From Gemmatimonadaceae bacterium (GTDB lineage: Bacteria; Gemmatimonadota; Gemmatimonadetes; Gemmatimonadales; Gemmatimonadaceae): a stretch of 64,000 nucleotides of DNA. The notes beneath the pieces are model-generated. The model searched no databases, had not been told where the DNA came from, and was given only the letters and a program-made list of their open reading frames with translations. The stretch spans positions 1 through 64,000 of the forward strand of contig JBBJNV010000017.1 in NCBI GenBank assembly GCA_037721215.1, written 5' to 3'. Positions 10,129 to 39,978 of the stretch are shown in pieces. The translations under genes and the position numbers were made by a program. Positions within the stretch are counted from its first letter, which is position 1, and every line of letters starts with the position of its first letter.

Positions 10129-10164
10129 ACGGATGGCAAAACCGAACAAAAACCGCAAAGTGGT

Positions 10165-10170
10165 TATATT
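10165..10170 (+). promoter_or_regulatory. Candidate -10 element for a leaderless uvrB mRNA
   Basis: TATATT ends 6 nt before the uvrB GTG start, so a transcript would begin at about the start codon. No Shine-Dalgarno-like purine run precedes the GTG. No convincing -35 box is visible 16-18 bp upstream. The same element at the same distance precedes alaS. Confidence 0.35.
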
Positions 10171-10175
10171 TAGAA

Positions 10176-12242
10176 GTGCCGTCCAAAGCCGAGTTCGACC
10201 TTCAGGCCCCGTTCAAGCCGGCGGGGGATCAACCTCATGCGATTGCCGAGCTGACGCACGGGCTCGAGCGGGGCGACCGGTTCCAGACACTGCTCGGCGT
10301 GACCGGATCCGGCAAGACGATGACAATCGCCAACGTCATCCGGAATTTTGGGCGGCCGACGCTGGTTCTGTCGCACAACAAGACGCTCGCCGCGCAGCTC
10401 TACGGAGAAATCAAGAGCTTTTTCCCGAACGACGCGGTCGAATATTTCATCTCGTATTACGACTACTACCAACCCGAGGCGTACGTACCGACGACGGATA
10501 CGTACATCGAGAAGGATGCTTCGATCAACGAGGACATCGACCGGTTGCGGCTGAGGGCAACGTCGAGTCTGATGGAGCGCGAGAACGTTATTATCGTCGC
10601 TACTGTCTCAGCGATCTACGGTCTTGGCGATCCGGTGAGCTACAGGGAGCACATGTTGACCCTGACCAAGGGGCAGCGGATACCCCGCGACGACATCCTG
10701 CGTGCGCTGGTGAAGATTCAGTATTCACGTAATGACGTGATGTTCGACAGGGCGACGTTCCGGGTGCGCGGTGATACCGTCGAGATTCTGCCGGCGTATG
10801 AAGAGCAGGGTGTGCGCGTGGAAATGTTCGGTGATGAGATCGAGCGGATCTCGAAGATCGACCCCCTTACGGGCCGAGCCATCTCGGAAATCGGGAAGGC
10901 GGCCATTTACCCCGCGAAGCATTTCGTGACATCGCGCCCGACGATCAAGCGGGCGGTGGAGCTCATCCGCGACGAGCTGGTCGAGCGGCTCAACGAGCTC
11001 CGCGCCACGGGAAAGCTGCTCGAAGCACAGCGTCTGGAATCGCGCACCAACTTCGACATCGAGATGATGCTCGAAATCGGCACGTGTGCGGGAATCGAAA
11101 ATTATTCACGTCATCTTTCCGGGCGCGATGGCGGAGAGCGTCCGGCGTGCCTCTTCGACTATTTCCCTGACGATTTCCTGGTAGTCGTCGACGAATCACA
11201 CGTTACGCTTCCTCAGATCGGCGGGATGTTTAACGGCGACAGGGCACGCAAGCTGACGCTGGTGGATTACGGATTCCGGCTGCCGAGTGCGCTGGACAAC
11301 AGGCCGCTGATGTTCGATGAGTTTTTGTCGCTGACGCCCCGTGCAATCAATGTTTCAGCAACGCCTGGCGAAATCGAGCTGCGCCTTTCGGAAGGCGTCG
11401 TTGTCGAGCAGATAATTCGTCCGACCGGCCTCATAGATCCCGAGATTGACATTCGTCCTGTGCGCGGTCAGGTGGACGACCTGCTCAACGAGATTCGCCT
11501 GCGGGAGAAGAAGAGTGAGCGTGTGCTCGTGACGACGCTGACGAAACGCATGTCGGAGGATCTCACGGACTACCTCCAGCAGATGGGCGTTCGCGTTCGA
11601 TACATGCATTCGGATATCGACGCAATCGAGCGGATGGAAATCGTGCGCGGGTTGCGCCTTGGCGAGTTCGACGTTCTGGTAGGCATCAATTTGCTGCGGG
11701 AGGGCCTCGACCTTCCTGAAGTGTCGCTTGTCGCAATTCTCGACGCGGATCAGGAAGGGTTTCTTCGGAGTGACCGGTCGCTCATTCAGACCGTTGGAAG
11801 GGCGGCCCGGCACGTCAACGGGCGCGCGATATTCTACGCCGACCGAATCACAGGGTCGATGGCGCGGGCGATGGACGAAACGAAACGGCGGCGCGAAACT
11901 CAGCGCGCGCACAATGTTGAACATGGCATCACGCCGTACAGTGTGGTCAAGAGTACTGAGCAGGTGAAGTTCATCACGCGCGTAGCTGACGCCCGGGAGG
12001 TGCGCGAGGCAAGGGAGGACGATCGTGCGCGCCGTGTAGCGGAAGTCCGGCCGACGTATGGCGGCGGAGATCCTGCGGTGCTCATCGCTGAGCTGGAAAA
12101 GGGAATGAAAGACGCTGCTCTGGCCCTGGATTTTGAGACCGCCGCCCGGCTGCGGGATCAGCTTTTCGAGATCAAGGCGAAGTCGGATGGCAATCGGGCT
12201 CGCTCGCGGGGACCGCTGGCAGGCATCAGGGCTGAGCGGTGA
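10176..12242 (+). CDS. uvrB: Excinuclease ABC subunit B
   Basis: DNA-damage verification helicase of nucleotide excision repair; loads on DNA with UvrA and recruits UvrC. Walker A is [10 protein letters not shown] near residue 39, the beta-hairpin that clamps DNA is visible ([20 protein letters not shown]), helicase motifs [14 protein letters not shown] and QTVGRAARH follow, and a C-terminal UVR motif ([20 protein letters not shown]) mediates UvrC contact. At 688 residues length is normal. The start is GTG at 10176, 47 bp after rel, with no ribosome-binding site but a TATATTT box just upstream. The last codons abut tsaE in a TGATG overlap. Confidence 0.97.
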
Positions 12243-24341: not shown

Positions 24342-25196
24342 ATGGCGGGTGCCACGCGTGAAATTGAAATGCCGTTTCTCGATCACCTCGAGGAGCTGCG
24401 GCACCGGCTTTTCTGGATTGCGGGGGCCATTCTTCTCGGGGTGGTCGTATCGTTTGTTGTTCTGTCTCAGAAACGTCTGGACCTGGTAGGGTTGCTCGCA
24501 CAGCCGATCAAGCCGTACCTGAAAAACGGCAGTCTCGTGTATACCCACCCGGGAACATCGTTCAAAATCATTCTGAATGCTTCGCTCATCACCGGCATGT
24601 TGCTGGCGACGCCGGTAATAGGGTATCAGCTCTGGGGCTTTCTTGCGCCGGCGCTGCACTCGCACGAGAAGCGCATCATCATTCCCACAGCGTTTGGAAT
24701 GGTCGCCCTGTTCCTGGGGGGAGTCGCGCTTTGCTTCAAAATTGTCCTGCCATTCACGCTGCGCTTTTTTCACGGGTTCGAGTCGGCTTCGCTTACGCCG
24801 ATGATCGAAGCGACCCAGTACTTCGATTTCGCGTTCAGCATGATGCTTGCTTTCGGAATTGCCTTCGAGCTTCCGATTGCCATCCTGCTGCTGACCGTAC
24901 TTGGAATCGTCAATCCGCAGACACTCTCGAAGTACCGGCGTCATGCCATTGTGGTATGTGTGATTGCTTCGGCATTCATCACCCCCGATGCGAGCCCCAC
25001 GACGCTGTTCGCGCTCGCCGGGCCGCTTTACCTGCTGTTCGAGCTGGGGCTTGTACTTTCGTACGCAGTAACGAGGCGGCGCCGCAAGCGGGCCCTGGCT
25101 GCCGAGCTTGAAGCTCGTCGTGAGGCTGACCGCGAGATGGGACTCGTTACGGGAACCGGAGGACGTGAGCCACGCCGACTGGGAGTGGATCTATGA
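24342..25196 (+). CDS. tatC: Sec-independent protein translocase TatC
   Basis: Polytopic receptor of the twin-arginine pathway that binds folded substrates' signal peptides. The N terminus MPFLDHLEELRHRLFW is the TatC hallmark; six membrane segments follow, with FDFAFSMMLAFGIAFELPI in the conserved later half. I start at ATG 24342 rather than at TTG 24333, since family members begin just before the EMxFLDHLEELR motif. 284 residues. The tatA-type partner is at 37785, about 13 kb away, so tat genes are split here. The stop overlaps lptD (ATGA). Confidence 0.96.
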   Translation: MAGATREIEMPFLDHLEELRHRLFWIAGAILLGVVVSFVVLSQKRLDLVGLLAQPIKPYLKNGSLVYTHPGTSFKIILNASLITGMLLATPVIGYQLWGFLAPALHSHEKRIIIPTAFGMVALFLGGVALCFKIVLPFTLRFFHGFESASLTPMIEATQYFDFAFSMMLAFGIAFELPIAILLLTVLGIVNPQTLSKYRRHAIVVCVIASAFITPDASPTTLFALAGPLYLLFELGLVLSYAVTRRRRKRALAAELEARREADREMGLVTGTGGREPRRLGVDL

Positions 25197-28153
25197 GGCG
25201 CTTGCTGGTCGTGCTCGGGTTATTGATCCTGCCCTGCGCTGCCTACGCACAGCCAACGCGGCCGGTCCGGCCTGTCGTGCCGCAAAGCGCGCGGCCGACC
25301 CCCGACGATACAATCCGCCGTGTCGCGGGAGATACACTTCGCGTCGATTCGGCGGCGGCGCGCAAGCTGATTGAATGGGCGGAAGCCGACTCGGTGACGA
25401 GAGCGCTTCTCGATCGACCCGGATATTCGGTTACCCGATACCAGGGCGTGAAAGTGACTTTCAACGCCAGGTCGCGCACTCTCTATCTGGAGGGAGGGCC
25501 TGCCGCCGTCGGGCGCGGGACGACCCTCCTCGTGGGTGATACCATCACCTACAATGATTCGACAAAGATCGTCCTTGCACGCGGCGATACGCTGATACTC
25601 AGGGATCCTTCGCAAGGCTCCGCATCCGATGTGGTCGCGCTCGGCCAGCTGCGCTACGACATCGTTGCCCGCCGCGGCAGCGTGACGAATATCAGCACGG
25701 CCATTGAAGGGACGGGACAGAAGTGGTTCGTCGGGGGGATGCAGACTGCCTTCGTTCTCGACACTACGAGAGGACGGCAGCCTTCTTACTATGTCCGTGG
25801 CGGCTCGATTACCAGCTGTGACGACTCGATTCCGGATTACCGGTTCCAGGCAAAGGAAATCAAGCTCGTGTCGCGAAACATCATGGTTGCGCGCCCCGCG
25901 GTGCTGTACATCGGGGACATCCCGGTGATGTGGTTGCCATTCATCTTCCAGGACATGCGATCGGGAAGGCGAAGCGGGATACTGACACCGCGGTTCGGCG
26001 TCAGCGAGCTCTTTCGAAACAGTCCCACCTACCGCCGCCATGTGGAGAACATTGGTTACTACTTCGCATACAGCGATTATATGGACGGTCAGGTTTCGCT
26101 CGACTGGCGGAGTGGAGCAGGTGCATCGGACGGCGATCCGGGTTGGGTGAGGGTTAACGGAGAATGGAGATATCGCTGGCTCGATCGTTTCCTGACCGGT
26201 CGGCTGGCGGTTTCGCGGCTGGCGCAGCGTGACGGGCAGAAAAACACGGCATACTCGTGGGGACACCAGCAGAATTTCTCTCAGACATCGAGTCTGACGA
26301 CCGATATCAATTATGTAACCAGCACCGTGCTGCAACGTCAGAACACGTTCGATCCGCGTCAGGTGCTTGCGACAATTCAGAGTCAGGCGAACTATCAGCA
26401 GAAACTGGGACCGGCATCGCTCAGCCTCGGTGGAAGTCAGCGGCAGTATCCGGGGCGCGAGGAAGTAAGTCGGGATTTCCCCAATTTCAGCCTCAGCACA
26501 CCGACGCTGGAGCTCGCCCGGTGGCTGGAGTGGACGCCGTCACTAAATGTCACCAATGCACAACAGCTGAAGGTGGACGTGACAGGCCCGCTTGGATTCC
26601 GGTTCACGGGAGCCGACGACGACAGGAACGGTGTTCCGGACACCGTCCGGGTTCGCGGCGATTCCCGGGCAACCCGGCTGTCGATCGGAACGCCCTTCAA
26701 GATCTTCGGCTTCACCTTACAGAACTCTTTTCGGGTGTCGGATCTCGAAAACACGGCGCCGATAACCATACCAATCATCGATCCCCCGGACCCGACCCGC
26801 ACGACCAACCGGATTTTCGGCAAGACGTACAGTACCGAGGTTGATTTCGAGACTTCGTTCGCGCTGCCGACGCTGCTGCAAGGCACGTTCAACCTGGCGC
26901 CGAGCATCGGTCTGACGAACGTAGATCCCCGTGGCTATTGGGTTCGCACTCAACTTACCGGCGGGCGCTTCGTTAATCAGTCAAAGCGATTGAGCTACGG
27001 CGCTTCGGCAGCTCCCACGGTGTTCGGTCTCTTCCCGGGTTTTGGCGGAGTCACCCGCTTCAGGCATTCAATATCGCCCGTCCTTAGCTATCGGTATGCG
27101 CCCGCGGCGCAGGTTAGCAATGAGTTTCTCGCGGCGCTGAATGAGAACCCGCGCAACTACATCGGCTCACTTGCCGCGAATCAGGTCACGCTGCAACTCG
27201 CACAGACGCTCGAGGCAAAGCTGAGGACGAAGGACACGAGCTCTACGGCCGAGGCGAAGAAGGTGAAGCTGCTGGCGCTCACTTTCTCACCTCTGACATA
27301 CGACTTCGAGTTGAAGCGCGCCACGGGCAGGTCTGGCTTTACAACCGATCAGTTCAGCTATGACGTGACATCCGAGCTTCTGCCCAGCTTTCGGTTAGGC
27401 GTACAGTACTCCCTGTTCGAGGGAAGCGTGCTCAGCGACACGGCGCTGTTCAAACCGTTTCGGACTGGCATCAACGCGTCGCTGTCATTCAACAACCAGT
27501 CGGGAATCTTCGCTGCCATCAATCGTATCCTGGGCCGCGCGGTGCCGCAGCCCAATCCGCAGATCGAGCGCCTGGAGCGGAGCGCAGATGACGCGCTCGT
27601 CCAGCGTATTGCTTCAACGCCAGTTGCTGGAAGCTCGATCGGGAACCGGCAGTTTGGAATTCCCGAGACACAAGGATGGCAGGCTTCGTTTACGTTCAGC
27701 TCGTCGCGTCAACGCGCGCCGACCGGTAACGGCGTCGTCATCGACGATGACCCGCGGACCCGATGTCAGCCATTTGTCGGCAATCCCTTCGTCTTCGACC
27801 AGTGTGTGCTTACTCAGCAGACCAACCCGGTGGGTGCGGTTCCGGTAGATCGTCTTACGGCAGGGGGGCCATTCATACGGACCCCGTCGCGAGAGAATCT
27901 CAACTCGCAGATGAGCTTCAACATCACGCCGAAGTGGTCAGCGTCGTGGGGCACTAACTACGATTTTCAGGCCGCGCAGTTCGGGAGTCAGACGGTGACG
28001 TTACAGCGCGAGTTGCATGACTGGCGCACCATTTTCGCGTTTACCAAAGGTCCGAACGGTAACTTCGCGTTCAACTTCTTCATCGCCTTGACCGCGCAGC
28101 CAGACATAAAGTTCAACTACGACAGGCAGACCTACCGGCAATCCGGACAGTAG
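25193..28153 (+). CDS. lptD: LPS-assembly protein LptD (OstA-like)
   Basis: Outer-membrane barrel that inserts lipopolysaccharide in the outer leaflet. A signal peptide (MRRLLVVLGLLILPCAAYA) is followed by an OstA/LptA-like N-terminal jellyroll (residues about 75-240: VTFNARSRTLYLEGG, GDTITYNDSTKIVLARGDT), then the LptD region starting at IPVMWLPFIFQDMRSGRRSGILTP, a strongly conserved motif, and a long C-terminal barrel rich in alternating strands up to a final FxF-type end. 986 residues, slightly longer than proteobacterial LptD. It overlaps tatC by 4 bp. Confidence 0.9.
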   Translation: MRRLLVVLGLLILPCAAYAQPTRPVRPVVPQSARPTPDDTIRRVAGDTLRVDSAAARKLIEWAEADSVTRALLDRPGYSVTRYQGVKVTFNARSRTLYLEGGPAAVGRGTTLLVGDTITYNDSTKIVLARGDTLILRDPSQGSASDVVALGQLRYDIVARRGSVTNISTAIEGTGQKWFVGGMQTAFVLDTTRGRQPSYYVRGGSITSCDDSIPDYRFQAKEIKLVSRNIMVARPAVLYIGDIPVMWLPFIFQDMRSGRRSGILTPRFGVSELFRNSPTYRRHVENIGYYFAYSDYMDGQVSLDWRSGAGASDGDPGWVRVNGEWRYRWLDRFLTGRLAVSRLAQRDGQKNTAYSWGHQQNFSQTSSLTTDINYVTSTVLQRQNTFDPRQVLATIQSQANYQQKLGPASLSLGGSQRQYPGREEVSRDFPNFSLSTPTLELARWLEWTPSLNVTNAQQLKVDVTGPLGFRFTGADDDRNGVPDTVRVRGDSRATRLSIGTPFKIFGFTLQNSFRVSDLENTAPITIPIIDPPDPTRTTNRIFGKTYSTEVDFETSFALPTLLQGTFNLAPSIGLTNVDPRGYWVRTQLTGGRFVNQSKRLSYGASAAPTVFGLFPGFGGVTRFRHSISPVLSYRYAPAAQVSNEFLAALNENPRNYIGSLAANQVTLQLAQTLEAKLRTKDTSSTAEAKKVKLLALTFSPLTYDFELKRATGRSGFTTDQFSYDVTSELLPSFRLGVQYSLFEGSVLSDTALFKPFRTGINASLSFNNQSGIFAAINRILGRAVPQPNPQIERLERSADDALVQRIASTPVAGSSIGNRQFGIPETQGWQASFTFSSSRQRAPTGNGVVIDDDPRTRCQPFVGNPFVFDQCVLTQQTNPVGAVPVDRLTAGGPFIRTPSRENLNSQMSFNITPKWSASWGTNYDFQAAQFGSQTVTLQRELHDWRTIFAFTKGPNGNFAFNFFIALTAQPDIKFNYDRQTYRQSGQ

Positions 28154-28157
28154 CGCG

Positions 28158-29174
28158 ATGCAATCGATTCTACACATCACCAACGGTGACTGTGCAGGAG
28201 ATCTGATCAGGGCCTCGGGGATCGCCGGCGATGTGCTTGCGTGGCGCGACATCCTCCATGAGGGGCCGGTCCCGCGATTGCCCCTTACGCAGCTTAGCCT
28301 GGTGCGCGCCGACTTCCTTGCTGGCGAAGGGCTGGGTGAGGCCGCCCGGATTCGTGCGGATTTCGCCGAGCGCGACTCGACGCTGATGCGCTTTGACTGC
28401 TACGACCAGGTAGTGCTCTGGTTCGAATGGGACCTGTACGATCAGCTGCAGCTTATTCAGCTGCTCGATTTCTTCTCGGCCAACTGGTCCGGGGACTCGA
28501 GCGAGACCCATCCTCGCCTCGATATTGTCTGCATCGAAGGTTACCTCGGCAATACCGCTGTTGAGGATTACCCATCGCTTTTCGAAAAGCGCGCTCCGGT
28601 CACCGGGGAGATGCTCAAGGTCGGCCGGGATGCGTGGCGTGCGTTTACGTCCTCCGATCTGCAGGATGTAGAGTTGTTCATCCGCGGTGATACGACCCCG
28701 CTGCCATTTCTTCGTGACGCATTTTTCCGGGCACTCGAAGAATTTCCGTCCGCGCGAAACGGATTGTCGCGATCGGAGTCACAACTGTTGGAAGCGGTCT
28801 CCGGCGGACCTCTTGGATTTTCGGAACTGTTCAAACGCGTTTCGCAGCGCGAAGCCCGTGTCTTCTGCGGTGACATGGCGGTGGCGGGTTACCTGGAGCG
28901 CATGAGCGCGAAGCCTGAGCCGCTCGTTTCATATGCCTCGGGCGACCGGATCCGCTATCCTCGCGATGGTGAGGATTCGGCGGCATTTCGAAACGCGCAG
29001 GTTGCCCTGACGGAGGCAGGACGCTCGGTTCTCGCGGGCGGGCGCGACTGGATCGACATGGGGGGTGCCGACCGGTGGCTTGGCGGCGTCCATCTTCAGG
29101 GTAGAAATTCACCCTGGCGGTGGGATTCAGATGCGGAGACACTTCGAATGCGCGAGAGCGGCGTGAATGGCTGA
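28158..29174 (+). CDS. DUF1835 domain-containing protein
   Basis: Conserved protein of unknown function, 338 residues, no signal peptide or membrane segment. The N-terminal third reads LHITNGDCAGDLIRASGI and LAWRDILHEGPVP, matching the DUF1835 pattern. The C-terminal part (from about residue 215) looks like a winged-helix-like domain (LSRSESQLLEAVSGGPLGFSELF), suggesting a nucleic-acid or regulatory link, which is inference. It begins 4 bp after lptD and overlaps hutH by 8 bp, so it is translationally coupled to the histidine-degradation genes. Confidence 0.82.
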   Translation: MQSILHITNGDCAGDLIRASGIAGDVLAWRDILHEGPVPRLPLTQLSLVRADFLAGEGLGEAARIRADFAERDSTLMRFDCYDQVVLWFEWDLYDQLQLIQLLDFFSANWSGDSSETHPRLDIVCIEGYLGNTAVEDYPSLFEKRAPVTGEMLKVGRDAWRAFTSSDLQDVELFIRGDTTPLPFLRDAFFRALEEFPSARNGLSRSESQLLEAVSGGPLGFSELFKRVSQREARVFCGDMAVAGYLERMSAKPEPLVSYASGDRIRYPRDGEDSAAFRNAQVALTEAGRSVLAGGRDWIDMGGADRWLGGVHLQGRNSPWRWDSDAETLRMRESGVNG

Positions 29175-30684
29175 GGGCGTTTCCAGCATCGAGATCGATG
29201 GGAACTCGCTGGACATCGAAGGCGTGCGTGCCGTGTCTGATGGCGGAGCTGGAGTAACCCTTGGGCCCGGGTCGCGATCGAAAATGCGGAACACGCAACT
29301 CGTCATTGCCGGCATCGTCGAGCGGGGCGATGTGGTTTACGGCGTTACTACCGGATTCGGCAAGCTTTCCGAGATAGCCATCCCGCGCGACCGGCTAGCC
29401 GAGCTGCAGGTGAACCTCGTTCGCAGCCATGCGGCGGGGGTAGGTCCGTTTCTGCCGCAACGCGAAGTGCGCGCAATGATGCTGCTTCGGGCCAATGTGC
29501 TCGCGAAGGGATTCTCCGGCGCGAGGCCCGCGCTGGTCGATCTGCTGATCGGCATGTTGAACGCCGGTCTTTACCCACTGGTGCACGAGCAAGGCAGCGT
29601 GGGGGCAAGCGGGGATCTTGCACCGCTCGCAGCCCTCGGACTAGCACTTATTGGGGAAGGCACGCTGTGCCAGGACGAAAATCCGGCGCGTGACGCGGCA
29701 CGCGCCCTCCGCGACAACGGTCTCGAGCCTCTCCAGCTTGGACCCAAAGAAGGAATCACTCTCATCAATGGCACACAGGCGCATACCGCGATCGCGTCCC
29801 TTGCTGTTGCCGACGCGCGAACGCTCTGGCAAACGGCGCATGTCGCCGGCGCGATGTCTCTCGAAGCATTGCTTGGAACTCCAGTTGCGTTCGATGAGCG
29901 GATTCACGACGCAAGGGGGCAGTCCGGACAGCGCCGGTCGGCAGCACTTCTTCGCGATCTATTGGCGGATAGCGCGCTCAGGGAATCCCATCGGTTTGGC
30001 GATCCGAGGGTGCAGGATCCGTACTGCCTTCGATGCATGCCCCAGGTTCACGGGCCTGTTCTGGACGCGCTCGACTGGATTGCAGATATCGTCACGCGCG
30101 AGCTGAACGCCGCCACCGACAATCCACTCGTGTTCGAGAACGGCGAAACACTGAGCGGCGGCAATTTTCACGGGCAGGCGGTGGGGATGGCGCTCGACTT
30201 CCTCGCCATTATCATGACCAACCTCGCAACCATCGCTGAGAGGCGGATTGACCGCCTGGTACATCCTGATTTCAACCAAGGATTGCCTGCCTTCCTTTCG
30301 GCAGATGCGGGGGTCAACTCCGGTTTCATGATGGCTCAGGTTACCGCGGCCGCACTCGCCAGTGAATGCAAAGTGTTGTCGCATCCCGCTACGGTTGACA
30401 CGATTCCCACCGACGGGAACAGGGAGGACGTTGTACCAATGTCGATGGGCGCGGCCTGGAAGGCGCGGCGCATCATTGGCAACGTGAGAAATGTGCTCGC
30501 TATCGAGCTGATGTGCGCTGCGCAGGCGTTGGACTTTCGCGCGCCGGTTAAACCGGGCCCCAGGATGCAGAGGGCGCACAATACGGTGCGATCGACCGTC
30601 TCGCATCTCGACGACGACCGGGCGTTGAGCGGCGACATTGCGGCTCTTGCCTCAGCCATTGAAAGCGGCGGGTTCAACACGTGA
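29167..30684 (+). CDS. hutH: Histidine ammonia-lyase
   Basis: Deaminates L-histidine to trans-urocanate, the first step of histidine catabolism. The self-formed MIO electrophile comes from Ala147-Ser148-Gly149 in [13 protein letters not shown]. Other active-site segments are [10 protein letters not shown] near residue 58, NGTQAHTAI, and the C-terminal [21 protein letters not shown]. 505 residues, normal length. ATG 29167 overlaps the upstream DUF1835 gene by 8 bp; hutU overlaps its stop by 4 bp. Confidence 0.97.
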
Positions 30685-32414
30685 TTGCTGATGGCACGAT
30701 TACGGAAGGGGTGCCCGCACCGAACGGCGTGACGATATCGCGTCGCGCGCCCGTCAGATCACCCCGTGGCCGCGAGATATCGTGCCGGGGGTGGCAGCAG
30801 GAAGCTGCCCTTCGGATGCTGATGAACAATCTCGATCCGGATGTCGCTGAGCGTCCCGAGGAGCTTGTCGTATATGGCGGAACGGGCAAGGCCGCGCGCA
30901 ACTGGGAGTCGTTCGACGCAATAGTGCGATCGCTGCGCGTGCTTGGGGACGACGAAACGCTGATCGTCCAGAGCGGCAAGCCCGTTGCGGTATTCCGAAC
31001 GCATACGTCGGCACCACGGGTTCTGATCGCCAACAGCAATCTGGTGGGAAGGTGGGCAACGTGGGACAAGTTCCGTGAACTGGAGCGGATGGGCCTCACG
31101 ATGTATGGACAGATGACTGCTGGTTCCTGGATATATATCGGTTCACAGGGAATCGTTCAGGGTACGTACGAAACGTTCGGCTCAGTAGCGGAGCGGCACT
31201 TCGGCGGAACCCTGGCCGGGCGACTGGTAGTCACGGCAGGCCTCGGTGGGATGGGCGGTGCGCAACCGCTTGCGGCGACGATGCAGGGTGCCGCTGTGCT
31301 CGCGATCGAGGTTGATGAATCCCGCGTAGACAAGCGGATCGGCACCGGGTACTGCGACCGCAAGACCGGTAGTCTCGAAGAAGCTCTGGCATGGCTGGAC
31401 GTTGCGCTGGACCACCGCGCGGCGCTTGCCGTTGGCCTGGTTGGGAATGCAGCGGATGTCATTCCCGAGCTGGTCGCGCGTGGAAGGATTCCCGACGTAC
31501 TGACAGATCAAACGAGCGCCCACGACATGCTGAACGGTTACGTGCCGGCGGGGATGCCGCTGAGTGAAGCCCTCGCACTGCGTACGGCCGATCCGGACGG
31601 GTATGTGGAGCTATCAACGGCCTCGGCGGTAGTCCACGTAACGGCGATGCTCGCGCTTCAGCGGATGGGCTCCATCACGTTCGATTATGGCAACAACATA
31701 CGAACTGTGGCATTCGATGCCGGCGTCGACGACGCGTTCAGCATTCCGGGCTTTGTCCCTGAGTATGTGCGACCACTTTTCTGCGAAGGGAAGGGTCCGT
31801 TCCGCTGGGTTGCGCTCTCGGGTGATCCGGCAGATATCGCAAGAACGGACGACCTGGTGCTCGATCTCTTCCCGGCCGACGAGCACTTGAGGCGATGGAT
31901 TACACTCGCGCGTGAAAGAATCAGCTTTCAGGGTCTTCCCGCCCGGATCTGCTGGCTCGGACAGGGCGAGCGAGCGCGGTTCGGGGTTGCCATCAACGAT
32001 CTCGTAGCGTCTGGAGAACTTTCGGCACCAGTGGTGATAGGCCGCGATCATCTGGATACCGGCAGCGTTGCCTCGCCATTCAGGGAAACGGAAGGAATGC
32101 GCGATGGCAGCGACGCCATCGCCGACTGGGCAATTCTCAACGCAATGTTGAACGTCGCCAGCGGTGCCTCGTGGGTGTCGTTCCACCACGGTGGCGGCGT
32201 CGGGATTGGCAACTCCCTGCACGCCGGGCAGGTCATTGTCGCGGACGGAAGCGCTGAAATGCGGCTGCGACTCGAGCGTGTTCTGACCAACGATCCCGGC
32301 ATTGGTGTCGCGCGTCATGCTGACGCCGGATACAAGGCTGCAATCGAAACCGCAAATGCCCACGGCATAATTCTGCCGATGCCGCCTCTGCCAGCTCCCG
32401 ATCAGAAAAGCTGA
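30681..32414 (+). CDS. hutU: Urocanate hydratase
   Basis: Hydrates urocanate to 4-imidazolone-5-propionate with tightly bound NAD. Diagnostic stretches: [50 protein letters not shown] and [14 protein letters not shown]. The C-terminal [16 protein letters not shown] is also typical. 577 residues, slightly long at the N terminus. GTG start at 30681 overlaps the hutH stop. The next gene starts at the base immediately after the stop. Confidence 0.97.
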
Positions 32415-33386
32415 ATGCTGTCGAGCAAGTTCAAACCCTGGCATGTTCCCGTATTTCTCGCGAAGTACGCATATCTGACCGTCGTCAACAAGCCCATTCT
32501 CGTTCATTTCGAGGTCACGCTTCGGTGCAATGCGCGGTGCGGTTTCTGCGACTACTGGAAGACAGAACCATCGGCGCGGGCGAATGAACTCAAGAGCTTT
32601 GTCGACGCCGCCAGGTTCTTCAATCCGATGATGATCACGTATACGGGGGGTGAGCCGACTCTCCGCCGTGATCTTGAAGACATCGTCTCATCGGTGAGCG
32701 ATGCCGTCAGCGTACAATACTCGACGCTTCTTACACACGGCGGCATGCTGACGATCGAACGCGCCAAGTCACTGTGGGACGCGGGCATTCACCAGTTCAA
32801 TTTCTCCCTCGATTTTCTCGACGAACGCCACGACACCGCTCGCGGCATTCCCGGACTTTCGGCAAAGATCTTCGATGTCATCCCGCGTATGCGCACAATC
32901 GGCATCGACAGCATCCGCTTCAACACGGTGATAAAGGATTCCAACCTGGATCAGTTGATGCCTATCGTCACACGTGCCGAGCAGCTCGGCTGCGGGGTCA
33001 ACTTCAGCTCGTATACGGATTCCAAGAATGGCAGCCGCGATGGTCTCATCGCTCAGTCGCGGGTCCCGGAGCTGGAAGCGGTGATCGAAGAGTTGCTGGC
33101 GTTCAAACGGCGAAAGCGGGGAGTGATCACGAACTCGGATTACTACCTCGAGCAGATTCCCCGCTATGTTCGCGGCGAAGCAATGGAGCCGTGTCGCTCC
33201 GGAATGCGCACGATCCACGTCGATCCCACCGGACACGTCAAGCGCTGTCCGGACTTCGCCACCGATTTTCACTGGAGCGAGTTTCGGAAATATCGACCGA
33301 TAGACTGTAACGCATGCTATTATGCCTGCCGCGGCGAAGCGCAGGCGCCACTACGGCTGTCGCGCATTCGCGATGTCATGGCATAG
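32415..33386 (+). CDS. Radical SAM protein with C-terminal cysteine cluster, in hut operon
   Basis: Radical S-adenosylmethionine enzyme of unknown substrate. The [4Fe-4S] motif is CNARCGFC (Cys38, Cys42, Cys45), followed by the SAM-contacting GGEPTLRRDL. The C-terminal third has further cysteines: EPCRSG, VKRCPDF and DCNACYYACRGE, a SPASM/Twitch-like arrangement that could bind an auxiliary cluster. The HVDPTGHVKRCPDF strand pattern is also SPASM-like. 323 residues, no signal peptide. It starts at the base after the hutU stop and ends 9 bp before hutI, so it is co-transcribed with histidine degradation. I know no radical SAM step in the Hut pathway; a peptide- or metabolite-modifying role is inference. 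Confidence 0.85.
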   Translation: MLSSKFKPWHVPVFLAKYAYLTVVNKPILVHFEVTLRCNARCGFCDYWKTEPSARANELKSFVDAARFFNPMMITYTGGEPTLRRDLEDIVSSVSDAVSVQYSTLLTHGGMLTIERAKSLWDAGIHQFNFSLDFLDERHDTARGIPGLSAKIFDVIPRMRTIGIDSIRFNTVIKDSNLDQLMPIVTRAEQLGCGVNFSSYTDSKNGSRDGLIAQSRVPELEAVIEELLAFKRRKRGVITNSDYYLEQIPRYVRGEAMEPCRSGMRTIHVDPTGHVKRCPDFATDFHWSEFRKYRPIDCNACYYACRGEAQAPLRLSRIRDVMA

Positions 33387-33395
33387 CTCCGGACA

Positions 33396-34676
33396 TTGAG
33401 TCAGATCCTCTTCGTAAACGCCGCGCAGGTTGTGACGTGCGCGGGTCCTGCGCGTGGTCGTCGCGGGATTGAAATGGGCGAGGCGGGAGTACTGACCGGG
33501 ACCGCAATCGCGATTGAAAACGAGCGCATCGCGGCGGTGGGTTCGCAGGCAGATCTGGAGCGTGAATTTCCGGACGCTACGCGCATTGATTGTGCGAATA
33601 CGGTGATCACCCCCGGACTGGTGGACTCGCATACCCATGCGCTTTTTGGCAGAGCGCGGTACGAAGAACATGAGCAGCGCGCTGCGGGTGCGGATTATAT
33701 GGCTATTGCGCGGCGTGGCGGTGGAATCCACTCATCCGTTGCGGATCTGCGTGCGCGGAGCGAAGACGACCTTTATGCACTTGCACTGCCGCGCCTGCGC
33801 AGGCTCGCTTCGTATGGATCGACGACCATTGAAGTGAAGTCCGGTTACGGACTATCGGTCGATGACGAGCTCAAATCGCTGCGCGTTGTCAGGCGTCTTA
33901 GCGAAGCACTGCCGATGCGCCTCATACCGACGTGGCTTGGAGCCCACGAGATTCCGCTCGATCATCGGGGGGCTGACAGGAGTCGCTCCGATTACGTAGC
34001 CCTTCTGTTGAATGAATTGCTCCCAGTGGTCGCCCGCGATAAGCTGGCTCGCTTCGCTGATGTGTTCTGCGAGCCCGGTGTGTTCACAATCGCCGAAACA
34101 CGTTCTATCCTCACAGCATCCAGATCGGCCGGCCTCGGGCTGAAACTCCACGCCGATGAGCTCGAACCCTACGGTGGTGCCGAACTGGCCGCCGAGCTGG
34201 GCGCTATCTCTGCGGACCACCTCGCCTCGATTTCGGCAGCCGGTATCGAGGCAATCGCAACCTCCGGCACGGTCGCAACGCTTCTTCCCGGCACAATGCT
34301 GTTCCTCGGCAAGCACAGGCAGGCGCCTGCGCGCCGTCTCATCGACGCTGGCGCGGCGGTGGCGCTGGCAACCGACTTCAATCCCGGCACTTCACCGACG
34401 TTCAACTTTCCCCTCATCCTCACTCTGGGCGTGAGCCAGCTCGGCATGAGCGCAGCGGAGGTTCTTATCGCCGCAACCGTGAACGGGGCGGCAGCGCTTG
34501 GGCTCGCCGCAGAAACAGGTCAGATCGCCACAGGTTTTTCAGCCGACCTCGCGATCTTCCACGCAGATGATGTCCGGGAGATACCGTATTGGTACGGTGA
34601 TCGTCGTTGTAGGAGCACGTGGGCGCGAGGAAAACCTTGTCACGCTTACGGCGCTGCCGATAACTTGAGCGCATAG
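33396..34676 (+). CDS. hutI: Imidazolonepropionase
   Basis: Opens the imidazolone ring to N-formimino-L-glutamate. Amidohydrolase metal ligands are visible in VDSHTHALFGRARYEEH, LGAHEIPLDHR, LHADELEPYGGAELA and ALATDFNPGTSPTFN. Substrate residues include the tyrosine in KSGYGL. 426 residues. The TTG at 33396 is the only start near the conserved N terminus (ILFVNAAQVVTC). No hutG or hutF follows in the window, so the last step must be encoded elsewhere. Confidence 0.96.
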   Translation: MSQILFVNAAQVVTCAGPARGRRGIEMGEAGVLTGTAIAIENERIAAVGSQADLEREFPDATRIDCANTVITPGLVDSHTHALFGRARYEEHEQRAAGADYMAIARRGGGIHSSVADLRARSEDDLYALALPRLRRLASYGSTTIEVKSGYGLSVDDELKSLRVVRRLSEALPMRLIPTWLGAHEIPLDHRGADRSRSDYVALLLNELLPVVARDKLARFADVFCEPGVFTIAETRSILTASRSAGLGLKLHADELEPYGGAELAAELGAISADHLASISAAGIEAIATSGTVATLLPGTMLFLGKHRQAPARRLIDAGAAVALATDFNPGTSPTFNFPLILTLGVSQLGMSAAEVLIAATVNGAAALGLAAETGQIATGFSADLAIFHADDVREIPYWYGDRRCRSTWARGKPCHAYGAADNLSA

Positions 34677-34726
34677 CGGTAGTCGTCACGCCGGGTGCGC
34701 CCGCTGGTCACGCCTCATCACTCAAG

Positions 34727-36478
34727 ATGTCCAACATCGATAAGCTCAAGAAGAAGGCCGCCGAGTTCGAGAACAAAAAACAGTACGAAAAGCCGCTCGA
34801 GCTTTACGAGCAGATTCTCAACCACACGCGTGCGGGTGAAGAGGATCGCGAAGTTCCCTTGTACAACAAGGTCGGCGGTCTGCACTACCGTATCGGCAAC
34901 AACGAGCAGGCCATCGGCTATTACGAGAAGGCTGCAGACCTGTACGCCGAAGGCGGTTTTTTCAACAATGCTATCGCGCTGTGCAACAAGATCCTGAGAT
35001 ACGCGCCAGGCCGGACGGTCATTTACTACAAACTCGGATCCTCAGCGCGAAAAAAGGCTTCAATAGCGACGCCAACCAGAATTTCCTCGAGTACGCAGAC
35101 CGGATGCAGCGCCTCGGAAAGGTGGACGAGGCACTCCGTGCGCTCAAGGAGTTTTGCGGATCTCTGCCCCGGGCAGGGCGATGTACGGCTCATGCTCGCT
35201 GAGCAGCTCGCCCGTGCCGACCGTAAGCCCGAAGCACTGGAGCAATTGCAGCTCCTGTATGAAACACTCGAGTCGGAAGGCCGGACGGTGGAGGCAACAG
35301 CCGCTGTCGACCGCATGAAGGTTATCGACCCGTCGTTTCTGCCCACGCGATCGGCGACACCGCCTCAGCGGAAGAAGGATGACCTCGTATTTCTCGACCT
35401 GGACTTCAATACCGCTGAACTCGGGGCGCCAGCTACGGATGCGGCAATTGGAGAGGCTATGGGCGCCGGGACCAGCAGCGACGCAGGCGTCATCCCGGAA
35501 GGATTTGTACAAGCCGAGCCTGCGGCTGAGACGGAAGAATCCGAACACACTGCGGCAACGGCTGTGCCGGAACGCCAAGTCGAGGCCGCGGCGCCCAGTG
35601 CACCGGAAGGTCTCGGGATGACGTCTGTGGAACGCGAGCGCATCGCGGCGATTACGCCATTGTCAGTTCAGTCGATAGATGAAGAAGTCTACTCCGCACC
35701 TTCGCCTGCAGCTGCTTCAGACCTCGTCTACATTCTGCCGGACGTCGAAAACCCGGCACTAGCGAACGAGAGCCGCACATGGGAAGACTCGTCTGATGCC
35801 GACCCGGTTGGGGGTGACCACAAAATGCAGCTTGAAGCTGAGCTTCTGCATCTCGAGCTGGCGCCGATAATCGACAGTGTGGATTTCCCCACTGCAGAAA
35901 AGACGGCAAATCGTACCGGCAGGCAAGGAACCAACGGACTTCCCGATGACGATTTCGTTGACCTGGGCGATTGGCTGGAGCGAAACCGCACGCCGGCCTC
36001 CACGAGAATGGTGGCGCACGATCAGGAGCCCGAGGACAACGAGCAGAAGGATTTCGGCGAGATGCTCGACAAGTTCAAGGAAGGTATCTCCAGGAATGTC
36101 GATAACGCGGATTTTGAAAGCCACTACGATCTGGGAATTGCTTTCAGGGAAATGGGTTTGCTCGACGAAGCAATTGGATCGTTTCAGAAAGCGTCGCGTG
36201 GCGAAGCGCAGCGGCTGCGGGCGTCGGAAGCGATGTGGCAATGTTTCATCGACAAGGATGAGCCGGCGGTCGCGACGGCGGTTCTTCAAGGGCTCGCCCG
36301 CGATTCCCAAATGGGCGACTGTCAATTGGTCGGAGTTCTTTACCTGCTCGGACGAGCGGCCGAGGCGCTGGGCCGCCTCGAAGAGGCAGAGTCGTACTAC
36401 CATCGTGTCATTGCCGTGCATATCAGATTCCGCGACGCCAGCGCCAGACTATCAGCCTTGGCGCAGACATCCCGGTGA
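34727..36478 (+). CDS. TPR protein with two compensating frameshifts
   Basis: Soluble protein of 583 residues. N-terminal TPR helices (KKKAAEFENKKQYEKPLELYEQIL, then YNKVGGLHYRIGNNEQAIGYYEKAADLY) and C-terminal TPR helices (LGIAFREMGLLDEAIGSFQKAS) flank a low-complexity acidic/Ala-rich middle (residues about 225-430). Residues about 105-142 are compositionally foreign (Ser/Thr/Arg-rich). In the neighbouring frame the same DNA encodes SAKKGFNSDANQNFLEYADR and GKVDEALRALKEF, ordinary TPR sequence that joins both flanks. So one base is lost at 35039-35043 and one T gained in TTTT (35152-35155). The protein is probably functional except for this helix pair, or the reads are wrong. Function unknown. 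Confidence 0.8.
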   Translation: MSNIDKLKKKAAEFENKKQYEKPLELYEQILNHTRAGEEDREVPLYNKVGGLHYRIGNNEQAIGYYEKAADLYAEGGFFNNAIALCNKILRYAPGRTVIYYKLGSSARKKASIATPTRISSSTQTGCSASERWTRHSVRSRSFADLCPGQGDVRLMLAEQLARADRKPEALEQLQLLYETLESEGRTVEATAAVDRMKVIDPSFLPTRSATPPQRKKDDLVFLDLDFNTAELGAPATDAAIGEAMGAGTSSDAGVIPEGFVQAEPAAETEESEHTAATAVPERQVEAAAPSAPEGLGMTSVERERIAAITPLSVQSIDEEVYSAPSPAAASDLVYILPDVENPALANESRTWEDSSDADPVGGDHKMQLEAELLHLELAPIIDSVDFPTAEKTANRTGRQGTNGLPDDDFVDLGDWLERNRTPASTRMVAHDQEPEDNEQKDFGEMLDKFKEGISRNVDNADFESHYDLGIAFREMGLLDEAIGSFQKASRGEAQRLRASEAMWQCFIDKDEPAVATAVLQGLARDSQMGDCQLVGVLYLLGRAAEALGRLEEAESYYHRVIAVHIRFRDASARLSALAQTSR

Positions 36479-37494
36479 CCGTCGGTCGCGCTGCGCCGGC
36501 GACTCTCACAGCCGGTCGGCCGTCGGACGTGCTCGCCCGGATTCAACAGCCAGTTCGTGAACCGCTGAATTCGGTAACGATGGAGATGGAGAGGATGGTG
36601 CTTCATGACGCGCCGCTGGTCGCGCAAATGGGGCAGCACCTCATGGGAATGCGCGGCAAGATGTTTCGGCCGACGCTCGTGCTTCTCTGTAGTGACGTCG
36701 AGGGCAAATCTGAACCTCGGGTGGTCGGGCTCGCAGCAGCAGTCGAACTTATCCATCTTGCAACGCTGGTGCATGACGACGCTGTGGATCACTCTGTACT
36801 CCGGCGCGGCATGCCAACGCTCAACTCTCTCTTCAGTCACCAGATCTCGGTGATCATGGGAGATTTCCTCTACTCCACCGCGCTGGGGAAGCTGGTCGAC
36901 GCCGGCGATCTGGAAGCTTTGCGCGTGCTCACCCGCGCATCGACCGATATGAGTGTCGGCGAGATGCGCCAGCTCGCAGTGGTCGACCCGCTCTCGTTTT
37001 CTGAAGACGACTATTATGGTCTTATCCGGGCGAAAACGGCCTCCCTCATGTCCGCCGCCTGTGCGGTCGGCGCAATGTGCGGGGCGGCCAGATACTGTGA
37101 GGCCTTGACAAGGTTTGGCGAATCTCTCGGAATGGCGTTTCAGATCGCCGATGATCTCATCGACTACACCGAGCAGGAGGAAACCACCGGCAAGCCAACC
37201 GGTCTCGACCTGCGCGAGCACAAGGTGACCCTTCCTCTGATTGCGGCGCTCCGCGAGATGTCGCCCGCAAACCGATTGAAGGTGGACAAACTTTTTGCCG
37301 GCGGCGAGCCCCGCGATGGCCCAATCGCAGAGGTTATGCGGATGGTTGCCGACAGTGGCGGTCTCGACTACGCGCGTGTTCGCGGCGCTCGCTATGCGGC
37401 GAAAGCGGAGGAAGCGTTGAGCGGGCTACCCGACACAGTGGCGCGGTCAGCCCTGATCGAGTCTATTTCCTATGTCATGGAGCGACACGCATAA
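36475..37494 (+). CDS. ispB: Polyprenyl diphosphate synthase
   Basis: Trans-prenyltransferase making long-chain polyprenyl diphosphate, probably the menaquinone or ubiquinone side chain. The first Asp-rich motif is HDDAVDHS (DDxxD) and the second is FQIADDLIDYT. The GKMFRPTLVLL segment is the usual GKRxRP region. 339 residues. The GTG at 36475 overlaps the TPR gene stop (GTGA). Chain length cannot be read reliably from sequence. It overlaps the next small gene by one base. Confidence 0.9.
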   Translation: MTVGRAAPATLTAGRPSDVLARIQQPVREPLNSVTMEMERMVLHDAPLVAQMGQHLMGMRGKMFRPTLVLLCSDVEGKSEPRVVGLAAAVELIHLATLVHDDAVDHSVLRRGMPTLNSLFSHQISVIMGDFLYSTALGKLVDAGDLEALRVLTRASTDMSVGEMRQLAVVDPLSFSEDDYYGLIRAKTASLMSAACAVGAMCGAARYCEALTRFGESLGMAFQIADDLIDYTEQEETTGKPTGLDLREHKVTLPLIAALREMSPANRLKVDKLFAGGEPRDGPIAEVMRMVADSGGLDYARVRGARYAAKAEEALSGLPDTVARSALIESISYVMERHA

Positions 37495-37775
37495 TGCCCC
37501 CAAAAAGCGCAACCCGGCACGGAATCGTCTTCAACGGCATCGTTCTGGCAATTGGTTTCATCGTTGGCGGACTCCTCACTCAGGTGGCCCGCAAATTTCT
37601 TCCGCCGGGCTCGGCGAAGGAATTCTTCACTACCGGGGTAACACCTTCGGTAGGCGCGCTTCCGGTGGATCTGGTGATCCTGAACTTTGCGCTCGGTCCG
37701 GTGGCGCTCGACGTATCCTTGCTCAGTCTGGTGGGCGTTCTGATAGCTTACCTGATTGCCCGTTCGCTCTTCTAG
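37494..37775 (+). CDS. Small membrane protein, DUF4321-like
   Basis: 93-residue protein with two predicted membrane helices (IVFNGIVLAIGFIVGGLLTQVA and VALDVSLLSLVGVLIAYLIARSL) separated by a short polar loop with PSVGALPVDL. The Gly-rich first helix and overall layout resemble DUF4321 proteins; function unknown. It is one base into the synthase stop codon (TAATG overlap) and 9 bp before tatA, so it belongs to the same operon. Confidence 0.72.
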   Translation: MPPKSATRHGIVFNGIVLAIGFIVGGLLTQVARKFLPPGSAKEFFTTGVTPSVGALPVDLVILNFALGPVALDVSLLSLVGVLIAYLIARSLF

Positions 37776-37784
37776 GAGGCAGAC

Positions 37785-38054
37785 ATGCTCGGCAACATAG
37801 GTTTTCCCGAAATCATGATCATTCTCGTGATCGTTCTGCTCCTCTTTGGCGCGAAGCGAATCCCGGAGATCGCAGGCTCGATGGGGAAGGGCATCAAGGA
37901 ATTCAAGAAGAATATCAATGACGCCACCCGCGACCTCAACTCGAGCGACGCACCCGGCTATGAGTCACGGCTCACTGCTGCTGAGCTGGAGGCGCGACGA
38001 ACCACTCCTCAGCCTGAAGATGCAGTGCGTCCTGAGCCGAAGCGGCTCGTTTAA
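37785..38054 (+). CDS. tatA: Twin-arginine translocase TatA/E subunit
   Basis: Pore-forming component of the Tat pathway. One N-terminal membrane helix (FPEIMIILVIVLLLFGAKRIPEI) with the conserved FG at its end, then an amphipathic helix (AGSMGKGIKEFKKNIND) and a short charged tail, total 89 residues. Strong GGAGG-type ribosome-binding site precedes the ATG at 37785. A single tatA-type gene is in the window; tatC is at 24342. The gene ends 37 bp before a bidirectional terminator. Confidence 0.95.
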   Translation: MLGNIGFPEIMIILVIVLLLFGAKRIPEIAGSMGKGIKEFKKNINDATRDLNSSDAPGYESRLTAAELEARRTTPQPEDAVRPEPKRLV

Positions 38055-38091
38055 CCGGGTTATCGGCCGCGCGGGGCCGAACCCAGCAACG

Positions 38092-38124
38092 AAAAGAGGC
38101 CGTGCGATCAGCGCGGCCTCTTTT
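38092..38124. terminator. Bidirectional factor-independent terminator
   Basis: AAAAGAGGCCG (38092-38102) and CGGCCTCTTTT (38114-38124) form a perfect 11-bp stem with an 11-nt loop, with A- and T-runs at both ends. It lies between the convergent tatA (plus) and ppiD-like (minus) genes and can stop transcription from both sides. Confidence 0.93.
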
Positions 38125-38145
38125 GCGTCGTGTGAACAGCGATGT

Positions 38146-39978
38146 CTACTGCTCGACGATCTGACGGCTGGCGGCCTCGATTTCCTTGCGGCGGTCGGTA
38201 ACCTTGGCCGACTCGCGCAAATTGGTGAGGAACTCGCGAACTCTCTGCTGCCGTAGCTGAGAGGCCACCTGCGTTCTCTGAGCCGCTTTCGTCCTCTCCC
38301 AAACGGCACGATCGGCAACGGTCCGCTGGTCGACCCGAATCACGAATACCGCATCGTACGTTTGAATCGGCCCGCTGACAGCGCCAATGGGAAGCGAAAA
38401 CGCCGCGCCGATTGCTTCGTTAAGCCGGCCAATACCTTCCGCGCCACTGATGCGAGTGAAAGCAGGACTCTTTGCCACAGGCAGCGCCGCAGCCTGCGCT
38501 GCCTGTTCGAGTGAGGCGGCGGCTGCTGACGCCGCAAACTGTTTTGCCCGCGGCATCAGCTTCGCAACCTTGAGCCTTCGGCCCAGCAGCTTTCGAATTT
38601 CCGGCGTGGCTTGTTCCAGGCTGGCGATGCCGCCCCGGTTCACCGAGTCGAGGCGGGCGAGATAGTAGCCGTCCTCAGCGTCAAACAGCTCACTGGTCTC
38701 GCCTGGTTTTGCACCTTGGAACGCCCACGGCCCAACGCTGGGAACGAACTTGCCGTTGATGACGAGGGCGTCGGTATCGACTACCGACGCTCTCTGAATC
38801 GGAATTCCGAGTTTTGTCGCTGCCTGTTGAAAAGCCCCGGGCTTATCGGTCGAGGCAGCGAGTCGTGCCAACTCGTCAGCGCGGCGATCAGTTGCCGTGG
38901 CAGCAGAATCGCCCTGGAGTATTGGCAGCAGAATATGTCGCAGCGTCAGAGTGTCGCCCTTCCGCTCGTCGACGCGAATGAGGTGATAGCCGAAAGGCGA
39001 AAGAACCGGCTGCGAGATCTCGCCGACGCCGAGTGCGTAAGCCGCTTCCTCGAAGGCCGGCACAAACCGTCCGCGTGCTCCGCTCCCAAGCGAGCCACCG
39101 CTCGCGGCCGAAGCCGAGTCGGTGGACTCAGTGCGGGCGACATCCTCGAATTTTTCTCCGCCAGAGATGCGTGCGCGGAGTGCCCCAAGGCGGTTCCGCA
39201 CCGATGCGCTGTCCGACGCAGTTACCGATCGGGGAATGGCGAGTACCGAGACGACCGCGTGGCCCGGTCTGTTGAAATCTTCCTTGTTGCTGTTGTAATA
39301 ATCTTTGATCTCCGACGCGGGCACGCTCACTGCCGAATCCGGCAGCATCTCCGGCCTGAATGCAACGTAGGAAATCCGAGCGGTATCGTGGGAGTCTTTC
39401 CAGATACTCCAAAGCCGCTCATCGCTGACGTATACATCTGCGGCCACCTGTTCGAACAACTTTTCCCTCGGGACCGCGTTTCGATAGTACGACTCGAGCT
39501 GGACCAGAATGCCCTGTTGCCGCGCGGCCGCGCTGGACAGAAAGCGCCGGTATTTTTCCGGATCGAACTGACCATCTGTCTGTAGCTCCGCGCTCTGAGC
39601 AAGCTCCGGCGGCGGGCTGAACTTTGCCGCTTCAGCCAGTTCTTCGTCAGTGACGTTGATCCCACGCCGCAGATATTCCTGTTTCAGCAGCACGTCGGAC
39701 ACTAGTTGCTCGAACGCCTGGTCTGACAAACGCTTGCGTTCATCGAGCGACACTCCCCGCCCGGACTGCTGCGTTGCCTGCTGTTCAAGGACGGCAGTCG
39801 CGTTATACCAGGCAGTCGCGAGAATGTCTTCGCCATTCACCGTCGCTACCGCGGTATTGGTGCGCACAGGGCCGCTTCCGAGTAGTCCTGACGTCTCGGC
39901 CAGAAGAAAGCCGCCGACGAAAAAGATGATGAGGAAAATCCAGATGTACTTTGCGGAACTCCGCATCGATTGCAGCAA
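38146..39978 (-). CDS. ppiD: PpiD-like membrane-anchored peptidyl-prolyl isomerase/chaperone
   Basis: Periplasmic folding factor anchored by one N-terminal helix (YIWIFLIIFFVGGFLLAE). A SurA/PpiD-type N-terminal helical domain (VNGEDILATAWYNATAV, LVSDVLLKQEYLRRG) is followed by a parvulin (PPIC) domain at about residues 240-345 (GGSLGSGARGRFVPAFEEAA, PVLSPFGYHLIRV), then a second degenerate parvulin region and a helical tail. 610 residues. The start is TTG (39978-39976), with AGGAG 8 nt upstream and a conserved-looking LQSMRSSAK entry; ATG 39966 is possible but lacks a site. Only minus-strand gene in the window, with its own promoter and terminator. Confidence 0.87.
   Translation of the reverse strand: MLQSMRSSAKYIWIFLIIFFVGGFLLAETSGLLGSGPVRTNTAVATVNGEDILATAWYNATAVLEQQATQQSGRGVSLDERKRLSDQAFEQLVSDVLLKQEYLRRGINVTDEELAEAAKFSPPPELAQSAELQTDGQFDPEKYRRFLSSAAARQQGILVQLESYYRNAVPREKLFEQVAADVYVSDERLWSIWKDSHDTARISYVAFRPEMLPDSAVSVPASEIKDYYNSNKEDFNRPGHAVVSVLAIPRSVTASDSASVRNRLGALRARISGGEKFEDVARTESTDSASAASGGSLGSGARGRFVPAFEEAAYALGVGEISQPVLSPFGYHLIRVDERKGDTLTLRHILLPILQGDSAATATDRRADELARLAASTDKPGAFQQAATKLGIPIQRASVVDTDALVINGKFVPSVGPWAFQGAKPGETSELFDAEDGYYLARLDSVNRGGIASLEQATPEIRKLLGRRLKVAKLMPRAKQFAASAAAASLEQAAQAAALPVAKSPAFTRISGAEGIGRLNEAIGAAFSLPIGAVSGPIQTYDAVFVIRVDQRTVADRAVWERTKAAQRTQVASQLRQQRVREFLTNLRESAKVTDRRKEIEAASRQIVEQ

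Follow-up and report, generated by a model that had tools for sequence, protein, structure and literature searches.

The SPASM domain of radical SAM enzymes is described as having 7-8 conserved cysteines and two auxiliary clusters (PMC10452713; see also PMC9012708), whereas Twitch is a truncated SPASM with 3-4 cysteines and one auxiliary cluster (PMC10452713). Among the described enzymes with which the protein studied here can be compared, BlsE (cytosylglucuronate decarboxylase; PDB 7vob, TIGR04466) acts on a nucleoside sugar and not on a lipid (PMC3715490). MoaA, the GTP 3',8-cyclase (TIGR02666), is a Twitch-type radical SAM enzyme, HpnH (TIGR03470) is the adenosyl-hopene transferase and Tes (GDGT-MAS; 7tol, 7tom) is the tetraether lipid synthase. 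The PTO1314 family (TIGR03961) is a hypothetical equivalog with no assigned function. Our literature search turned up no paper that describes a radical SAM gene within a hut operon or the present gene in Gemmatimonas.

In the window, which is the whole 64,000-nucleotide stretch of Gemmatimonadaceae DNA analysed, a radical SAM gene (rSAM) lies flush between two genes of histidine utilisation. The gap from the hutU stop (32414) to its start is 0 bp, and 9 bp separate its end from the TTG start of hutI (33396). The initial annotation had called the gene in this position and had described a CxxxCxxC motif (Cys38/42/45), a GGE segment and C-terminal cysteines resembling an auxiliary-cluster domain; all of these were confirmed. 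A radical SAM enzyme with a SPASM/Twitch-like C-terminus is supported, with five invariant C-terminal cysteines. The features of the locus are as follows.

25193..28153, + strand: LptD-like outer-membrane protein, the upstream anchor (Pfam LptD_2, 2.1e-35), syntenic in families f1, f2 and f3
28158..29174, + strand: DUF1835 protein, conserved at the locus only among near relatives
29167..30684, + strand: hutH, histidine ammonia-lyase (Pfam Lyase_aromatic, 6.5e-184)
30681..32414, + strand: hutU, urocanase (Pfam Urocanase N, core and C domains)
32415..33386, + strand: rSAM gene with ATG start, product P0001 (323 aa)
32526..32549, + strand: C38-x3-C42-x2-C45, conserved in the orthologue alignment
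32646..32657, + strand: G78-G79-E80-P81, SAM-binding motif, invariant in 35 orthologues
33192..33329, + strand: auxiliary-cluster-like region C260-x12-G273-x4-C278-x19-C298-x2-C301-x3-C305-R-G-E, all five Cys invariant
33396..34676, + strand: hutI, imidazolonepropionase (Pfam Amidohydro_3 and HUTI_composite_bact)
34727..36478, + strand: TPR protein, a downstream anchor
36475..37494, + strand: polyprenyl diphosphate synthase (PPS), a downstream anchor (Pfam polyprenyl_synt, 1.3e-60)
38146..39978, - strand: PpiD/SurA-like chaperone, a downstream anchor

P0001 belongs to the radical SAM superfamily by its match to Pfam Radical_SAM (PF04055; E=8.3e-19, 68.8 bits against a gathering score of 29.5), and it is single-copy in its own genome, where the runner-up match reaches E 3.7e-6 and 25% identity. 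The alignment comprised 35 orthologues with 61-77% identity to P0001, one incomplete row of which lacks C42 and C45. Cys38, Cys42 and Cys45 are the expected ligands of the SAM-binding [4Fe-4S] cluster, and Cys260, 278, 298, 301 and 305 are invariant in the 35 orthologues and also present in a clade of a second phylum. Going by these motifs, the CX3CX2C-bound cluster would cleave SAM to a 5'-deoxyadenosyl radical, this radical would abstract a hydrogen from the substrate, and the C-terminal domain would hold at least one auxiliary Fe-S cluster. As a separate observation, the TPR gene carries two compensating frameshifts in the window at 34990-35210, where the stretch KASIATPTRISSSTQ is out of frame and the alternative frame gives KKGFNSDANQNFLEYADRM, matching the relatives; this may be either a real change or a sequencing error.

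An rSAM orthologue is present in 158 of the 178 Gemmatimonadaceae genomes, and in 102 of the 105 having at least 90% completeness and at most 5% contamination; outside the family, the matches within this phylum are relatives with no more than about 24-32% identity. The 20 family genomes with no detected rSAM are mostly of low completeness or split into contigs, and only one of them (G102) was counted as a loss; in the other two high-quality absences, G031 and G258, the locus is interrupted by contig ends. Among the 139 scorable genomes (those listed with both hutU and rSAM), the gene lies directly downstream of hutU on the same strand in 120, at a distance of -1 to 683 bp (median 19), and the other 19 comprise 16 real separations and three probable contig breaks. 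This arrangement is not due to chance, since so many genomes hold the orthologue and the adjacency. The initial annotation had regarded conservation of the order hutU-rSAM-hutI across many genera as support for its reading, and adjacency in one genome only as evidence against it; the order is indeed shared across many genera. A plasmid search gave only distant matches, of about 24-29% identity among the matches listed, e.g. PqqE and MoaA. Genome G176 has three rSAM copies; of its loci L068 and L069 (contigs C46 and C45), L069 is near-identical on the flank tree to L046 of G199, from another genus, and the G176 assembly is therefore probably a mixed bin.

These counts support the view that rSAM belongs to histidine utilisation, with a Hut enzyme or a metabolite derived from histidine as the target of its modification, and that its position reflects this role: the gaps are very short, and of the 105 high-quality family genomes 102 have rSAM and 104 have hut genes. 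The sister families f2 and f3 speak against it. There hutU is nearly universal, and in 10 of the 12 loci read the arrangement LptD-(hutH)-hutU-hutI-TPR-PPS-PpiD recurs, with no rSAM. The gene was therefore inserted into a pre-existing hut locus; gene order places this event most parsimoniously in the common ancestor of Gemmatimonadaceae, with hutU and hutI on either side of the new gene. In the f3 loci L192-L195, hutH was not found at its usual place between LptD and hutU, and in L193 this interval holds a 410-aa ORF resembling a fibronectin-type surface protein. The hut operon is anchored between LptD and TPR-PPS-PpiD in several families of the order (25193-39978 in the window; L192-L200, L203), a lasting association between histidine breakdown and genes of the envelope.

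Within Gemmatimonadaceae, the hut genes have left rSAM behind repeatedly. All hut-away loci that were read still have rSAM in its place, with LptD (or hutH) on one side and TPR-PPS-PpiD on the other. The missing hut genes are located elsewhere and are of the familiar type in genus g4; in g18, g28 and some g3 and g21 genomes, a divergent hut replacement with a HutU of about 60% identity is found elsewhere. Genus g23 is split, with hutH beside rSAM and hutU elsewhere together with a divergent hutI. Strongly supported branches of a flank-gene tree built from LptD, PPS and PpiD force at least 6 changes between the hut-near and hut-away states, and in none of these lineages does rSAM accompany the moved or replaced hut genes. 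In most hut-away loci lacking hutH, the distance from the LptD stop to the start of rSAM is -1, 3, 9, 34 or 40 bp. Each lineage has a junction of its own, which fits the expectation for independent deletions. Pairwise dN/dS of rSAM is 0.03-0.10 in hut-away pairs against 0.05-0.18 in hut-near pairs; it is no higher after separation, and therefore the constraint on rSAM has not been relaxed. Comparison of these sequences shows an insertion followed by independent retention under continued purifying selection.

Two genomes break the association in opposite directions. In G102, a genome of 100% completeness, the locus reads LptD-hutH-hutU-hutI-TPR-PPS; the hutU and hutI matches are some 85 bp apart, and the whole genome lacks an rSAM orthologue. 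As G102 nests inside rSAM-bearing genera on the tree, the absence is a loss. In G228, LptD, rSAM, TPR and PPS lie together on a single contig, and the search of the genome gave no match to hutH, hutU or hutI; at a completeness of 88%, this is no more than suggestive of rSAM without hut. The co-movement and the joint gain and loss with hutH/U/I that would mark a component of the Hut pathway were seen neither in synteny nor in the outgroup nor in the dissociated lineages.

The absence from sister families, the staying of rSAM when hut leaves and the case of G102 therefore make a histidine-metabolite link improbable, and the tie of rSAM to the hut genes is very probably positional and not functional. 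A loose tie is formally possible, because almost all rSAM-bearing genomes possess hut genes at one place or another. The initial annotation thus holds in part: the radical SAM identity and the conserved hut order stand, whereas the modification of histidine-derived metabolites that it had put forward has become unlikely, with a hut locus lacking rSAM in the sisters and dissociation in several lineages. Its last alternative, that the gene is simply carried along, is the one favoured by the sister families, the dissociations and G102. A strong operon signal, with minimal gaps and spread over most genera of the family, has been misleading about function in this case, and it is the sister groups together with repeated natural deletions which separate the location of the gene from its function.

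The relatives of P0001 outside the family show other neighbours. The closest outside orthologues, of about 33-38% identity, come from 10 genomes of a second phylum (holding L176); an eleventh match from this phylum (G411) falls instead with a wider clade from other Gemmatimonadota. The second-phylum clade (L176/G376 and relatives) has about 36-38% identity to P0001 over residues 16-321 and the same five-Cys C-terminus, ending in CxxCxxxCR.E.QAP, and no hut neighbours were seen in the loci examined. Its rSAM in most cases shares an operon with the gene of a flippase-like membrane protein and adjoins such an LPG_synthase_TM (PF03706) gene in nine loci, whereas no orthologue of this partner was found in the Gemmatimonadaceae tested. 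A shared flippase-like partner was considered and set aside, as the PF03706 members that profile A2 detected were all distant ones, present in some of f1 but in other groups as well. One of the nine loci, L230 (20-2730, - strand), is a diverged paralogous pair of rSAM and LPG_synthase_TM in G402, a genome that also has the main orthologue, suggesting that the two genes form a unit.

In the further clade from other Gemmatimonadota, several loci have rSAM overlapping by 4 bp with a gene whose product is a VTT-like membrane protein, a call made at a Pfam VTT score slightly below the cut-off. In f11, the genes flanking a relative encode an ABC ATPase on one side and a protein of the LolA family on the other. 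In L231, a relative starts 13 bp after a gene for the tetraether lipid synthase Tes, which scores 514.9 bits where 450 are needed; LolA is found upstream, and a gene for an FtsX-like permease is close by. The LolA-family protein, Tes and the P0001 relative form a short-gap operon (8451-12007, - strand), a possible bacterial lipid synthesis and transport module. The P0001 clade, the second-phylum clade and the further Gemmatimonadota clade group together with an SH-aLRT of 95. The neighbours in the related clades vary in type, yet each has to do with lipids or lipoproteins of the envelope, and LptD is the constant neighbour of rSAM in Gemmatimonadaceae.

From these neighbours and the adjacency to LptD, an envelope lipid or lipid-linked substrate is inferred. 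The substrate would be a small or lipid-linked envelope molecule (a lipid, an LPS or glycan precursor, or a lipid-anchored molecule) and not a histidine catabolite. Our tentative reading, held with somewhat less than even confidence, is that P0001 acts on such a substrate as a Twitch/SPASM-like radical SAM enzyme common to the whole family, and that its hut placement is incidental and unrelated to histidine breakdown. The envelope substrate is the weakest part of this explanation, being guilt by association carried across 30-38% identity; the adjacency to LptD in hut-away lineages could alternatively be a mere outcome of deleting the intervening genes. An N-terminal amphipathic membrane helix was looked for in P0001, and the hydrophobic moment was unconvincing. 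An uncharacterised radical SAM enzyme is under purifying selection in nearly every Gemmatimonadaceae genome, and the envelope-lipid hypothesis for it is testable.

Structure prediction gave an AlphaFold2 model of P0001 with a mean pLDDT of 88 and a pTM of 0.88, where the cluster loop (residues 39-44) is the one part with a pLDDT below 50. The closest solved fold is BlsE, with a Z of 20.7 and 273 aligned residues between positions 25 and 321; next come SkfB, PqqE, DesII and MoaA, with SuiB, AbmM and BtrN also among the structural neighbours. The presence of SkfB, PqqE and SuiB in this list, and of many peptide maturases in the SPASM/Twitch fold class, would agree with P0001 being a maturase of a RiPP or a protein, with the precursor gene at another place in the genome. 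We consider this unlikely: P0001 does not have the set of 7-8 SPASM cysteines, its best fold match is a small-molecule enzyme, and the NCBIfam maturase models all score below their cut-offs. Moreover, the compact hut-away loci, bounded by LptD (-1 to 40 bp) and TPR, leave no space for a conserved precursor. A maturase with an adjacent precursor was rejected on this last ground, and a distant precursor is possible. A nearby precursor peptide, or relatives with a known unrelated role, had been named in the initial annotation as grounds for abandoning a Hut role, and neither was found.

The same structural list bears on a further reading, in which P0001 is a BlsE/BtrN/MoaA-like enzyme for a small molecule (a sugar, nucleoside or cofactor precursor) with no lipid role. 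BlsE is the top match across the whole protein, the folds of MoaA, DesII, AbmM and BtrN match too, and a nucleoside-sugar enzyme as best match counts against the lipid reading. On the other hand, a common fold does not determine the substrate, the sequence of P0001 scores far under the cut-offs of BlsE, MoaA and other families, and the related clades sit among lipid or lipoprotein transport genes. We consider this reading rather unlikely, though it deserves more credit than a maturase.

In comparison with the known systems, P0001 shares with BlsE the CX3CX2C radical SAM core and GGEP, at 18% identity and with 38.3 bits against the TIGR04466 cut-off of 400, and the blasticidin-type gene context is absent around rSAM. 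MoaA is of similar length and its structure 1tv7 is the best phmmer match of P0001 in the PDB (E 1.9e-13); the alignment is confined to the radical SAM core (residues 30-205), and P0001 scores 77.8 bits against the MoaA cut-off of 284. The top NCBIfam match is the PTO1314 family (E 4.9e-23, residues 16-276), at 81.9 bits against a cut-off of 306.05. HpnH gives 36.0 bits against 225. The radical SAM core of Tes is similar to that of P0001 (Z 16.4-16.6), but Tes is much larger with extra domains, and P0001 scores 51.1 bits against its cut-off of 450. The profile comparison with radical SAM subgroups which the initial annotation had proposed thus found no family of known role at its cut-off, nor did any other NCBIfam model reach its own, and P0001, by these profile scores, fits no named subfamily among those scored. 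It is conceivable, if rather speculative, that it represents an undescribed radical SAM subfamily of at least two phyla, core to Gemmatimonadaceae, whose members keep company with genes for lipid or lipoprotein transport and modify, by a novel radical reaction, a lipid of the outer membrane, LPS or a lipid-linked glycan. With five invariant C-terminal cysteines against the 7-8 required, P0001 was rejected as a SPASM member, whereas the first half of its set, C-x12-G-x4-C, taken alone, presumably matches the SPASM pattern. The five are one above the Twitch definition, and BtrN and MoaA, which are Twitch enzymes, are among the fold matches. The cysteine set of P0001 lies between Twitch (3-4) and SPASM (7-8), and the expectation from it would be one auxiliary Fe-S cluster, with two being possible.
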